Virus record (IMG/VR): IMGVR_UViG_3300006737_000140
Location: 1-27,941 of that record
DNA length: 27,941 nt
Reading direction: 5' to 3' (one strand)
From: a virus
How positions within the stretch are numbered: the stretch's first letter is position 1; the number at the start of each line of letters is the position of its first letter. The notes under the pieces were generated by a model, which saw nothing but the letters and a program-made list of their open reading frames with translations, made no database searches and was not told the origin of the DNA. Both the position numbers and the translations under genes were made by a program. Below are positions 20,331-26,272 of the stretch, piece after piece.

Positions 20331-20402
20331 AGCGAGTAGGTGGAATTGCACCCCTTCTTTGACTTGGAATAGCCAACGCATTACTCTTTATGCTTTACTC
20401 GC
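20331..20402 (-). tRNA. Degenerate tRNA-Gly(TCC)-like element
   Basis: On the minus strand a perfect 7-bp acceptor stem (GCGAGTA/TACTCGC) encloses a 4-bp D stem (GCAT/ATGC), an anticodon stem TTGGC/GTCAA (one G-U) and a T-arm-like GGGG-TGCAATT-CCACC. The anticodon loop is TATTCCAA, 8 bases instead of 7; aligned from its 3' side it gives T33-TCC-AA, a glycine anticodon. The D loop lacks the GG pair, T55 is replaced by G, the T stem has mismatches, and there is no encoded CCA. The first 15 bases overlap the end of the mom-like gene. It may be a decaying tRNA, an unusual functional one, or a tRNA-shaped processing site. Confidence 0.55.
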
Positions 20403-21002
20403 ATTTTTAGGATAAGGTTTTTTTAATTCTAAACACCTATCTTTTAATTCTTTTGTTAATGGATATATATATTTTCTTTTGCCTTTAGTTATATATATTT
20501 CTGCATTTGAATCAATATATTTTCTTACACTTTTTAAATTTTGTTTGACACCTTTGCCATATATCGTTTTATTATGCACTTTTTTCCCTTTTATTAAATA
20601 TCCTGAAACTGTGCCTTTGTTAAATTCTCCTTCATATATCCAATTTGTAGCTTGATATATTATTCCTGTATGATTTTGGTCTATATCTGCATAACTAATT
20701 ATAATTTTACATAATGGTAATTTTTTTTTTATTAATTTTAAACTTAATGATAAAGCTTTACTAGTACTATCTTGTTTTCCATTTAAAGCCATTCTTACTA
20801 ATTCTATTGCTTGCCCTTGCTTTAAACCATAAGGCTTAGCTAAATTAGAATTTGCACCTGTACCATATAAAATAACACCACACCATTCATTTAACTTATT
20901 AAATACAGAAAAACCAAATACATTAACAGGAATGCTTTTAGCATAATGAAATTTAAGACAAGCATATTTAATAGCTTTATATGAAGCATTTTTTAATATC
21001 AT
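20388..21002 (-). CDS. Mom-like DNA adenine modification protein
   Basis: This 204-residue protein has the hallmarks of the phage Mu Mom family, GNAT-fold enzymes that convert adenines in phage DNA to a methylcarbamoyl/acetamido-type adenine that blocks restriction. Visible elements are the HY pair at 19-20 (LKFHYAKSIP), WCGVILYGTG (40-49), AIELVRMAL (65-73), SYADIDQNHTGIIYQATN (103-120) and WIYEG (121-125). The His-Tyr pair and SYAD segment correspond to the conserved active-site regions of Mom. The C-terminus is basic (KGKRKYIYPLTKEL), suited to DNA binding. It overlaps the ParB-like gene by 4 bases, so the two are probably co-translated. Mu also needs Com; no Com is seen here. The end overlaps the tRNA-like element. 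Confidence 0.72.
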   Translation of the reverse strand: MILKNASYKAIKYACLKFHYAKSIPVNVFGFSVFNKLNEWCGVILYGTGANSNLAKPYGLKQGQAIELVRMALNGKQDSTSKALSLSLKLIKKKLPLCKIIISYADIDQNHTGIIYQATNWIYEGEFNKGTVSGYLIKGKKVHNKTIYGKGVKQNLKSVRKYIDSNAEIYITKGKRKYIYPLTKELKDRCLELKKPYPKNASKA

Positions 21003-21541
21003 AATTCTCCAGCACTTACAGAATATGTTGCTTTATTATATTTATTTACTATTGTTGCTATTTCTTTTTCTGCATTTTGCAAATCATTTATATTATTAAA
21101 AGTTATTTTAATTGTTGGTGGTTTATTTTTATTATCATCTGTAAGTTCATTAAAATCAGGTTCTTCTAAATCATCTTGATTTTGCCAAACATCTAAACCC
21201 CATTCAGCAAGTTGAACACTATCCCATTCATTTGCTAACATATTCCATTCCCATTCACCATAAGGAGTATTGTCTTTAATTATAAATTCTCTTTTTTCAA
21301 GTTCTGTCCAATCTTCAGTATCATCAATCCATACTTCTTTTAATCCTGCTTCTTTTGCTGCCTTTAGTCTCATATTACCACCAAGCACCATCATATTCTC
21401 ATCAACAATAATTGGTCTTTTTTCAAACATTTTTGGAAAACTTTTAATACTTGCTACTAGTTCTTTAAATTTAGAATCTTTTATAATTCTAGGATTGTGT
21501 TTGTTTGGTAATACCTTACTTATCTTAACTTGTTGTTTCAT
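20999..21541 (-). CDS. ParB/sulfiredoxin-fold protein
   Basis: This 180-residue protein carries a ParB N-terminal-type nucleotide-binding domain: HNPR at 15-18, the helix KFKELVASIKSFPKMFEKRP, PIIVDENMMVLGGNMRLKAA (43-62), and FIIKDNTPYGEWEWNMLANE (86-105). No HTH domain follows, so it is not a partition ParB. Stand-alone versions in phages often lie beside DNA methyltransferases or other modification enzymes. Here it overlaps the mom-like gene by 4 bases. It could bind or prime the modification cofactor, guide site choice, or nick DNA; none of these can be read from the sequence. A TCTATTATAT box precedes the start. Confidence 0.75.
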   Translation of the reverse strand: MKQQVKISKVLPNKHNPRIIKDSKFKELVASIKSFPKMFEKRPIIVDENMMVLGGNMRLKAAKEAGLKEVWIDDTEDWTELEKREFIIKDNTPYGEWEWNMLANEWDSVQLAEWGLDVWQNQDDLEEPDFNELTDDNKNKPPTIKITFNNINDLQNAEKEIATIVNKYNKATYSVSAGEL

Positions 21542-21566: not shown

Positions 21567-21824
21567 TTATTTAAATGGTTCATTAATACCTCTTTCACCA
21601 ATTAACTTTTCTTTTGCACCATCCCACAGTTTGTCATGCCTTTTCTTTTTACTAAGTGATGCTTCTGTTCTTTTAAGGCTAGGCATACCTTCAACAGGTT
21701 TTGAGGTCATGTATTTACCACAACTACACATAACATCTGCTACCCACTTTTTATCTCTATAAACTATCTTAGCTTTAGATACTTCTTTGGTTTCTTTTTT
21801 ACATTCACAAGTGTATAGTGTCAT
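21567..21824 (-). CDS. Small protein with zinc-ribbon-like cysteines
   Basis: This 85-residue protein has cysteines in two knuckle-like groups: CECKK (6-10) and CSCGK (33-37) separated by a strand region (VYRDKKWVADVM), as in a zinc ribbon. The rest is basic (SLKRTEASLSKKKRHDKLWD) and may contact nucleic acid. It overlaps the DUF3310 gene by 4 bases. Similar small proteins occur in the early regions of Bacteroidota phages. Function unknown. Confidence 0.5.
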   Translation of the reverse strand: MTLYTCECKKETKEVSKAKIVYRDKKWVADVMCSCGKYMTSKPVEGMPSLKRTEASLSKKKRHDKLWDGAKEKLIGERGINEPFK

Positions 21825-22078
21825 TGTGCTAATCCTCCTGTTAATGTTTTACTTTCTTCATGTATCTTTTCTAATTCAAAGTGCAATACGTTTATTGCCT
21901 TTTGTATGTCTTGCTCAGCTGGATTCCCTTCTTTGTTTCCTGCTCGTAATATATACTGTAAAGCTTGGGCTTTCCAAGCACTTAAATCAAAGTCATCAAC
22001 TATGTCTTTAGCTGAATACCCATAAAGGTTTCCTGTATAGTAGTGAGGTTGTGGTGTTTTTTTATAATCTTTAGTCAT
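21821..22078 (-). CDS. DUF3310 protein
   Basis: I choose the ATG at 22078-22076, which overlaps the stop of the previous gene and gives 85 residues. Longer frames would read back into the upstream gene. The sequence QPHYYTGNLYGYSAKDIVDD, FDLSAWKAQALQYILRAGNK and DIQKAINVLHFELEKIH matches DUF3310: an H-Y-x-G start, an F-x-x-G/A-N-x-x-K-Y-I/L-x-R-A-G/x-x-K helix and a K-A-x-x-Y/L-L-x-x-E end. The family is common in tailed phages. It has been called nucleotide-kinase-like, but its role is not settled. Confidence 0.72.
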   Translation of the reverse strand: MTKDYKKTPQPHYYTGNLYGYSAKDIVDDFDLSAWKAQALQYILRAGNKEGNPAEQDIQKAINVLHFELEKIHEESKTLTGGLAQ

Positions 22079-22475
22079 TTTTATATTTTTCATAAAGTTT
22101 TTTAATTCCATCAAAGCAAGTGGAAATGCATGAGCCACAATTAGTCCTAGTAGAATAATTTGTGTTATATATTGTGTTATAAGTTTCAATCATACGTTTT
22201 TTTGCTTCTACATTTTTTGCTCTTCCTGTTTTTAAATCTTCCCACATTTCAAGTATTTCATCTATTATTTCTTGTGGTAAATCATCAGGTGTTTCTATCT
22301 TTGTTGTTTTTTGCCATTTCTTTTGACTGCATTCCATAGGTGCTAAACGTGCCTTAATTTTCATAAAACAACCGCAGTCCTTACATGTTCCTGTTGGTTT
22401 AAAATAAAATACACAACTTCTACATATTGCTATTCTATCTTCATAAACATTATTAGGAACAAAAAATTTATTCAT
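22071..22475 (-). CDS. Cys-rich zinc-binding-like phage protein
   Basis: I choose the ATG at 22475 (134 residues). The longer frame upstream is explained by a separate small gene. The N-terminal domain has C18, C21, C31, C34, C36 and C49 in RIAICRSCVFYFKPTGTCKD and CGCFMKIKARLAPMEC, a double-knuckle zinc-binding pattern frequent in Bacteroidota phages. The C-terminus has a second cluster, NCGSCISTCFDGIKKLYEKY. The middle is an acidic helix (LPQEIIDEILEMWEDLKTGR). It could be a small regulator or DNA-binding protein; no catalytic motif is seen. Confidence 0.6.
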   Translation of the reverse strand: MNKFFVPNNVYEDRIAICRSCVFYFKPTGTCKDCGCFMKIKARLAPMECSQKKWQKTTKIETPDDLPQEIIDEILEMWEDLKTGRAKNVEAKKRMIETYNTIYNTNYSTRTNCGSCISTCFDGIKKLYEKYKND

Positions 22476-22563
22476 TATTAACTGAATAATATGGTTCTCT
22501 CCAGTCAGGGTGCTTAAAGCCAAACTGCATAAAAAATAAGTCGTGTGTTTTTGGGTTATACAT
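22468..22563 (-). CDS. 31-residue microprotein
   Basis: The ATG at 22563-22561 lies inside the last codons of the sigma-like gene, and the TAA at 22470-22468 lies 8 bases inside the next gene. The peptide MYNPKTHDLFFMQFGFKHPD then WREPYYSVNNE has a strongly protein-like aromatic composition. It fills a gap between two real genes, so I think it is translated. Function unknown. Confidence 0.45.
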   Translation of the reverse strand: MYNPKTHDLFFMQFGFKHPDWREPYYSVNNE

Positions 22564-23137
22564 CTTCATTTAATTCTTTTTTTAATATTGTTCTTACTTT
22601 GTCTATTGTTGTAAATAAGCTGTTCCTACTTATTTTTGTTTTTGCTGCTAGTGAATCGAGTGTGTTACCATCATAATAATATAATTTAAAAAGCTCACGG
22701 TCATACCATGTTAACTTATCAAGCTCAGCATCAATTAATTCTAGTTTATACAAAGATTCATTATGACTTACATCCTCTTCCTCATTTGGTAAATTATACA
22801 AATGTTTATTAGGCACAACCTCACCAGTTTCAATTACATCATAAGTTATTGTGCTTGTATATTCATCTATGTGAGTATAATACTTGCCATACTTATAGTA
22901 AAAATTGCTACGCTTACTTGTTAAAGACCTTCTTAAAGCTACTGCACCATACCTTGTAATTCCTTTAATACCGTCATTTATATATATTTTTTTAATTACT
23001 TCTGGGTTTGCCTGTAAGAAATAAAGCATTAGTTCTTGAACAGCCTCATTAACTTTGTTTTCATCATTTGTAATACCATAAGCCATAGTTCTAAATTTAT
23101 CTGTCAGCTTTGATATTTCAAGATAAATATCAGTCAT
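22556..23137 (-). CDS. Phage sigma-70-like factor
   Basis: This 193-residue protein has a region 2-like N-terminus (TDKFRTMAYGITNDENKVNE at 12-31, AVQELMLYFLQAN, recalling the core-binding helices of sigma-70) and a region 4-like C-terminus at 138-190 (ELDKLTWYDRELFKLYYYDG, NTLDSLAAKTKISRNSLFTT, IDKVRTILKKEL) with the HTH that would read a -35-like element. Between them is GAVALRRSLTSKRSNFYYKY, possibly region 2.3-2.4-like. It could direct host RNA polymerase to late phage promoters; the recurrent TCTATTATAT box is a candidate target. An alternative is a terminase-small-like HTH protein, but the region 2 segment argues against it. Confidence 0.65.
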   Translation of the reverse strand: MTDIYLEISKLTDKFRTMAYGITNDENKVNEAVQELMLYFLQANPEVIKKIYINDGIKGITRYGAVALRRSLTSKRSNFYYKYGKYYTHIDEYTSTITYDVIETGEVVPNKHLYNLPNEEEDVSHNESLYKLELIDAELDKLTWYDRELFKLYYYDGNTLDSLAAKTKISRNSLFTTIDKVRTILKKELNEDV

Positions 23138-25755: not shown

Positions 25756-26082
25756 TTAGAATGGCATATCATTATTATCAGAAGTAATATATTCCTCATT
25801 ACTTTCTGAATTTTTATTATTCCATTGCCAAGCATTTACACTAGTATAATACTTGCCATTAAATTCATTACTTTTAATATTAACAGCTGCACTTACTGTA
25901 TCTCCAACATTAAAGCCATCTAGCTTTCTTAATGACTCACCACCAAAGGCTGTTACACATACATCAGTTTCAAATTTATCAAACTGCTTTAAAATAACAT
26001 CTTGCTTTTTCCATTCTTTTCCTGCTTTAGATATACCAGTTTCTACTGGTAACATTTTAATTATTTTTCCTTTAATTTCCAT
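25756..26082 (-). CDS. DUF3127 ssDNA-binding-like protein
   Basis: I start at the ATG at 26082 with an AAAAAGAAATAAA leader (108 residues); the longer frame runs into the upstream gene. The N-terminus MEIKGKIIKMLPVETGISKA, GKEWKKQDVILKQFDKFETD and NVGDTVSAAVNIKSNEFNGK, then YYTSVNAWQW, matches DUF3127, an OB-fold family mainly of Bacteroidota. The C-terminus is polar, acidic and ends DNNDMPF, like the acidic tip of SSB proteins that binds partners. The likely role is covering single-stranded DNA in replication or recombination, next to the ERF-like gene. Confidence 0.75.
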   Translation of the reverse strand: MEIKGKIIKMLPVETGISKAGKEWKKQDVILKQFDKFETDVCVTAFGGESLRKLDGFNVGDTVSAAVNIKSNEFNGKYYTSVNAWQWNNKNSESNEEYITSDNNDMPF

Positions 26083-26083
26083 T

Positions 26084-26272
26084 TTATTTCTTTTTGTTTT
26101 TATTAGACTTTGTTTTAATTTCTTCAATATTCTTTAATTCACATACATATTCCCAACCTTCTTCATTGACAATCTTGCATTTTTCTATTCCATTTTTAAA
26201 CCATTTTTCTACTAAAGTAAATGCACCACCATAATTTACTTTTTTTAAATTTTTTACCCTGTACTTTTTCAT
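26084..26272 (-). CDS. Small basic hypothetical protein
   Basis: This 62-residue protein (MKKYRVKNLKKVNYGGAFTL, VEKWFKNGIEKCKIVNEEGW) has beta-type segments in the first half and a lysine-rich end (IKTKSNKNKKK). It lies 1 base from the DUF3127 start and 2 bases after the previous small gene. No known motif. The pattern fits a small nucleic-acid-associated phage protein, but the function is unknown. Confidence 0.45.
   Translation of the reverse strand: MKKYRVKNLKKVNYGGAFTLVEKWFKNGIEKCKIVNEEGWEYVCELKNIEEIKTKSNKNKKK

Follow-up and report, generated by a model that had tools for sequence, protein, structure and literature searches.

What does a ParB-like protein do directly in front of a Mom DNA modification enzyme, and from where does Mom take the group that it places on adenine? 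To our knowledge phage Mu, whose mom gene lies behind com at the genome end, has neither a ParB partner nor a linked tRNA gene, and we know of no proof, since the product was solved in 1983, of the source of the glycine-like group in Mu Mom DNA. That product is named as purine-6-yl glycinamide in the part of PMC3874153 which cites Swinton 1983. Both questions are raised by the stretch of 27,941 nucleotides analysed here (the window), one linear virus record in which the genes concerned lie on the minus strand (Table 1). The ParB-like and Mom-like genes of the initial annotation were found where it had placed them, the mom start codon and the ParB stop codon sharing four bases (ATGA), and all of the motifs that it had read, NPR and GGNMR in the first protein and HY, SYAD and IYQATNWIYEG in the second, are present in the sequences. 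Comparison of aligned mom 3' ends identified a third gene, absent from that annotation, which resembles tRNA-Gly and shares its first 15 bases with the end of mom, stop codon included. We consider it likely that the three constitute a phage DNA-hypermodification module composed of a ParB-like protein, Mom, and a dedicated tRNA-Gly-like RNA that acts as the glycine donor. With slightly less confidence we extend this to Mom enzymes in general, that of Mu included, which would then be glycyl-tRNA-dependent DNA modifiers served by a purpose-made phage tRNA-Gly (in some cases a mini-tRNA without a D arm) and by a shared ParB-like loader.

Table 1. Features of the ParB-Mom-tRNA locus in the window.
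Feature	Positions	Strand	Remarks
ParB/Srx-fold protein, 180 aa	20999..21541	-	NPR, GGNMR and DN motifs; ParB fold in N-terminal residues 1-95; C-terminal part unmatched
Mom-family DNA adenine modification enzyme, 204 aa	20388..21002	-	GNAT-like fold
tRNA-Gly-like gene, 72 nt including discriminator T	20331..20402	-	R1 covariance model, covariation, cloverleaf fold
Anticodon loop TATTCCAA of the tRNA-Gly-like gene, 8 bases	20364..20371	-	CC at 20366-20367 = C35 C36, glycine identity bases
Bulged extra A in the T stem 3' strand of the tRNA-Gly-like gene	20341..20341	-	missing in ordinary tRNA-Gly

The second protein of the locus is a member of the Mom family in sequence, in fold and in its active site. 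It scores 127 bits against Pfam PF25680 (E 7e-37; cut-off 27.1) over profile positions 5-202 of 202, matches the "Mom-like" PHROG 1384 at 4e-46 and, in a profile comparison, the solved Mu Mom (PDB 8bv8) at 2.8e-32, and its predicted model (pLDDT 92.8) superposes on 8bv8 with a Z of 19.4 and an rmsd of 3.1 over 178 aligned residues. Comparison with Mu Mom and relatives showed that HY, ELxR, Ser81, SxAD and YQA are kept in the window protein. Among the relatives HY is invariant, the A and D of SYAD are invariant or near-invariant, and Ser81 is near-invariant; by a manual count along the profile alignment this residue would correspond to Mu S124, the serine mutated in the inactive S124A structure. 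The best neighbours after Mu Mom among the structural matches listed are CoA-using GNATs, and neither the Fem nor the L/F transferase fold is among those matches. A published proposal has an acyl-CoA such as glycyl-CoA as the donor for Mom (PMC7824862), which leaves the linked tRNA unexplained; the linkage of the genes suggests that the acyl group may be taken from an aminoacyl-tRNA. It should be added that a tandem pair of Mom genes behind a single ParB, with one tRNA-like element after the second Mom, is present in L083:3549-4987 and in L085, L195, L196 and L197, and that in Salinibacter phage B2_17 (L068:3914-4575) Mom is split across two frames (two tblastn pieces, two ORFs), due either to a frameshift or to a sequencing error, with the tRNA-Gly intact.

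A recurring association of the two protein families, on which the initial annotation had staked its reading, was borne out by the neighbourhood survey. ParB lies directly upstream of mom in 64 of the 65 viral contigs with a Mom relative, and the one contig without it begins at mom; annotated pairs are carried by Enterococcus phage phiEf11, Microbacterium phage Phonegingi and, with one small gene between the two, Arthrobacter phage Shade. The pairing in the viral contigs is far beyond chance. In bacterial genomes a profile detects a neighbouring ParB at 34 of 48 Mom loci (manual count of the table), and the pair is also found in prophages of several phyla. In Acidobacteriota loci outside these 48 the ORF upstream of mom is divergent (NPK..HD, GNGR, DHNN) and was missed by the profiles; reading of its motifs suggests that it too may be a ParB. 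Such proteins, with NPK, GNGR and DHNN, are encoded at L302:1335-1958, L303:95-685, L176:2366-2983 and L178:2333-2983, where Pfam recognises no ParB, and those of L302 and L303 give weak zinc-ribbon matches at the C-terminus. Neither ParB nor a linked tRNA was found at the Mom loci of Listeria, RaK2-type, Vibrio F100, Staphylococcus PMBT8 and Geobacillus, which in this respect differ from the window as Mu does.

The tRNA-Gly-like gene of the window has an acceptor stem formed by GCGAGTA and TACTCGC followed by the discriminator T, scores 79.7 bits with the R1 covariance model, and folds to a cloverleaf with a z of -3.0. Scans of the window by ARAGORN and by Rfam at the gathering threshold reported no tRNA; in several relatives ARAGORN reports a tRNA-Gly at exactly the same place. 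Conservation of the fold is evident from the alignments, since in 27 distinct sequences 98.5% of the paired cells can pair, against 71% when shuffled and 34-48% when slid, with 155 double changes against 43, and in 91 sequences the corresponding values are 98.2% of cells and 576 double changes against 144 when shuffled. Some of the relatives are without a D arm. Given that tRNA genes are frequent integrase targets, a tRNA-like sequence in a phage could also be an integration site (att) or the remnant of a host tRNA gene. The compensatory changes, however, fall in all stems of the 91 sequences, the 5' half included, and the element keeps its place by mom and, in the window, lies by the small terminase gene and not by an integrase. 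On covariation and position we reject this reading, which has hardly any probability left.

Scans with R1 link the RNA to mom. R1 matches in all 62 close loci in which the contig covers the end of mom. Among the ParB survey loci, which were kept out of R1, it matches in seven of the seven divergent ones with Mom downstream on the contig and in none of the 70 with another or no visible partner; in 58 of these 70 ARAGORN likewise found no tRNA. In bacterial genomes R1 matches 21 of the 48 Mom loci, including those of Bacteroidota, Acidobacteriota, Chloroflexota, Calditrichota, Clostridia and Gallibacterium, and another viral scan gave matches at 51 of 63 loci, counts which vary with the sampling of each scan and in which metagenome loci are non-independent samples. 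The RNA is present at mom in phages or prophages of Bacteroidota, Acidobacteriota, Chloroflexota, Calditrichota, Clostridia, Actinobacteria and Proteobacteria. When 100 dereplicated Moms were considered, 77 had the RNA beside them and the tree required nine changes of presence; the roughly one quarter without adjacent RNA comprises Moms of Yersinia, Serratia, Paenibacillus, phiEf11, some Actinobacteria, and jumbo-type and Listeria phages. As a blind test R1 was run across 13 whole genomes, where it matched mostly ordinary tRNA genes, as expected. Of the 20 matches that were extracted ARAGORN accepts 18 as ordinary tRNAs and rejects two, and each of these two lies across the end of a mom gene that had escaped the protein scan (E 2.7e-75 and 1.7e-74).

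The linkage holds while the gene order varies: about 22 loci have the RNA on the opposite strand, and in Chloroflexota it lies upstream of mom and ParB downstream. This variation bears on the possibility that the RNA is a regulatory tRNA mimic, on which RNase P or tRNA-processing enzymes would act to control the mom transcript in its stability or timing, and which would donate no glycine. A need for such control could be seen in the toxicity of artificially expressed Mu Mom (PMC12707154), and in many loci the RNA does overlap the mom 3' end on the same strand. Neither the opposite-strand nor the Chloroflexota arrangement fits a processing signal in the mom transcript, however, and processing alone would need no strict C35/C36, G1-C72, C2-G71 and U73, nor an encoded CCA. 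We regard the regulatory mimic as distinctly improbable, and favour an RNA that is charged.

Bacterial glycyl-tRNA synthetase (GlyRS) recognises G1-C72, C2-G71, C35, C36 and U73 as identity bases. Over 91 distinct matches, which include one unrelated tRNA-like match (L257:650-737), these bases are kept almost throughout (C35 in 88, C36 in 90, U73 in 91, G1-C72 in 90 and C2-G71 in 90), and the window element carries the set as GCG...CGC-T with CC in the anticodon loop. In the same matches the features used in decoding are eroded: U33 is kept in 50 of the 91, position 34 is variable (64 U, 23 A), the anticodon loop has eight bases in 40, and about 86 have an extra A in the T stem, on its 3' strand. 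The controls were 18 ordinary tRNA-Gly genes from the same genomes and from E. coli, and all 18 have U33 together with a 7-base loop and a T stem without a break. Translation calls for a 7-base anticodon loop with U33 and an unbulged T stem of 5 bp; the window element has an 8-base loop and a bulged T stem. Versions that lack the D arm and measure about 65 nt (L200, L202, L232-L236, L238, L250, L180, L263 and L265), the last three of which were obtained by a stem scan, a small alignment having shifted the anticodon stem out of register, retain the same identity bases, and CCA is encoded in many of the non-Bacteroidota copies. EF-Tu is known to read the T stem, in keeping with PMC4052509. These base patterns suggest an RNA that is unfit for protein synthesis and kept for charging; in some elements the anticodon loop is normal, and these could decode.

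An ordinary phage tRNA-Gly(UCC), which tops up the translation of GGA and GGG codons and lies beside mom by chance, would account for the tRNA-Gly calls that ARAGORN makes here in several relatives, for two deposited phage records which annotate the element likewise, and for the 53 bits that E. coli glyT reaches with the same model R1. It would not account for an RNA tied to Mom and not to the other partners of the same ParB, nor for the loss of U33, the 8-base loops, the T-stem bulge and the loss of the D arm, when all 18 host genes are intact. Nor does codon use support it, GGT being the commonest glycine codon of the window (245 against 106 GGA) whereas the window RNA is expected to read GGA and GGG and not GGT. 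A role in topping up translation is therefore very unlikely, and we have rejected it on decoding features, controls and codon use.

The first protein of the locus belongs to the ParB/Srx superfamily by its N-terminal fold and its NPR, GxxR and N motifs, and departs from partition ParBs in motif and in the extent matched. It falls 0.8 bits below the Pfam cut-off for PF02195 (E 1.4e-5), matches phrog_498 at 5e-25 and solved ParB chains at 3e-14 in a profile comparison, and its model fits CTP-bound ParBs to within 1.6-1.7 A across 95 columns (residues 1-95). Invariant among relatives are NPR, the N, and in GGNMR the R and the second G; GGNMR replaces the canonical GERR of CTP-switching ParBs, and essentially the N-domain alone was matched in the 180 residues, with no match to the parts of partition ParBs beyond that domain. 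In a survey of viral contigs the nearest relatives of this ParB were sorted by their downstream partner. Counted by ParB ORFs, the non-Mom partners are a fused methyltransferase (33), a TET-associated glycosyltransferase (20), an ABC-ATPase/GNAT (11) and an unknown 314-aa protein (4), the remainder being Mom, and the methyltransferase fused to the closest relatives is of the N6/N4 type. In the ParB tree, which has few columns and modest support, the ParBs with partners other than Mom fall among those Mom-paired ParBs that are closest to the window. Since the partners differ under a near-constant ParB, the downstream enzyme has been exchanged, and this exchange, together with the fold, leads us to favour a ParB-like protein that loads or aims modifying enzymes on DNA. 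DpdB and DndB may serve as precedents (PMC12839542).

That the ParB-like protein takes part in the modification, as the initial annotation had suggested with cofactor activation or site choice as examples, gains support from the nature of its other partners. Only one of the two examples fares well: because the partner enzymes have unrelated cofactors, cofactor activation by ParB is unlikely, and site choice or DNA loading is favoured. It is more likely that the cofactor side of the modification lies in the tRNA-Gly-like gene. A related idea is that the ParB-like protein is itself an enzyme of the modification chemistry, for example one that activates the donor in a nucleotide-dependent manner like sulfiredoxin or free serine kinase. 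The ParB/Srx fold and the retained NPR, G..R and N residues would allow this, and DpdB, a ParB-like ATPase, drives dPreQ0 insertion into DNA (PMC12839542). Against it, a methyltransferase, a sugar transferase, an ABC-GNAT and Mom all have almost one and the same ParB as partner; a single chemistry common to these enzymes is unlikely and a common loading role is simpler, and DpdB may itself be a loader; we consider an enzymatic role unlikely, while giving it some weight, and prefer the loader.

Two of the alternative partners deserve separate mention. The 314-aa protein, which overlaps and follows the same ParB in L088:1122-2063 (also in L090, L099 and L104), is unmatched in Pfam, PHROGs, NCBIfam and PADLOC, and its position makes it a candidate for an undescribed DNA-modifying enzyme. 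In L091:3486-4574 and L131:1624-2706 an ABC-ATPase and GNAT protein (phrog_11143) is paired with the same ParB, and no adjacent tRNA was found there.

The analysis establishes three genes with their homologies and predicted folds, shows that they recur together, and documents the base patterns of the RNA; from these results we infer the following course of events. Host GlyRS would charge the phage RNA with glycine, as its acceptor end and C35/C36 are kept, and the host CCA enzyme would add CCA where it is unencoded. The RNA would evade EF-Tu and the ribosome because its T stem is bulged and its anticodon arm or D arm altered. Mom, an enzyme with an acyltransferase fold, would then move the glycine from the RNA to the N6 of adenine in phage DNA, onto which it would be loaded or aimed by the ParB-like protein, exchangeable among chemically unrelated modifying enzymes. 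As a matter of chemical inference, the glycyl amine could attack C6 via a five-membered intermediate, an intramolecular rearrangement which would turn N6-glycyl-adenine into the isomeric glycinamide, and DNA modified in this way would be protected from restriction. Moms without a linked RNA would draw on host glycyl-tRNA. Counting against this model are the existence of such Moms, the CoA-using GNATs as structural neighbours, the published acyl-CoA proposal, the elements with a normal anticodon loop, and a window ParB without the full GERR.

Parts of the arrangement have parallels in known systems. In S. aureus an EF-Tu-weak tRNA-Gly serves the glycyl transfer of FemXAB to peptidoglycan, which is similar in its EF-Tu-weakening features and in a non-ribosomal transfer of glycine (PMC4052509); there the acceptor is a cell-wall precursor, whereas the proposed phage acceptor is DNA, the phage RNA is encoded beside its enzyme, and its lesions (bulged T stem, 8-base anticodon loop, loss of the D arm) are different ones. 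DpdA-DpdB, which likewise combines a base-modifying enzyme with a ParB-like protein to give a 7-deazaguanine modification, differs in its base exchange chemistry, in being a bacterial defence system and in having no reported tRNA gene (PMC12839542). The phage ParB-methyltransferase fusions (phrog_498) are nearest to the window ParB domain and place it in the same way relative to the catalytic part, but the methyltransferase is fused where the Mom of the window is separate, and the fusions are without a tRNA-like gene. The 5-carboxymethylcytosine-glycine amide made by CmoA/CmoX/CmoY is also a phage base with a glycine-derived amide for which tRNA biology is borrowed, and differs in using cytosine, Cx-SAM, an ATP-dependent ligase and other enzymes (PMC12783734).

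No description of a linkage between Mom and a tRNA, ParB or glycyl-tRNA was found in open-licence PubMed Central papers, preprints and subscription papers being outside the search. The individual families are already known; the novelty lies in the combination of the three parts and in the mechanism which this implies. If true, this would be the first aminoacyl-tRNA-dependent DNA modification and thus a new class of tRNA-dependent DNA chemistry, it would give a non-translational job to a set of phage tRNA genes, and it would explain ParB-like orphans of phage genomes as loaders of DNA-modifying enzymes. The tRNA-Gly beside Mom offers a concrete and cheap way to test another donor, and virion DNA is accessible from isolated phages with the module, namely Arthrobacter phage Shade, Microbacterium phage Phonegingi and Salinibacter phage B2_17.

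The initial annotation had further placed the module directly before packaging genes. This is the case in the lineage of the window, where the small terminase comes next in many loci, and not in the Arthrobacter, Microbacterium and Enterococcus phages, so that the position is not essential. Upstream of ParB, window positions 22071-22523, 21821-22189 and 22556-23137 hold a set common to several relatives, consisting of a cysteine-rich DUF6171-like protein, a protein matching "nucleotide kinase" PHROGs over their C-terminal part, and a third, uncharacterised protein which by eye was taken to be sigma-like. The window also encodes a DUF3127 protein (25756-26127), and as we take DUF3127 to be associated with Bacteroidota, the host of this phage is probably a member of that phylum.
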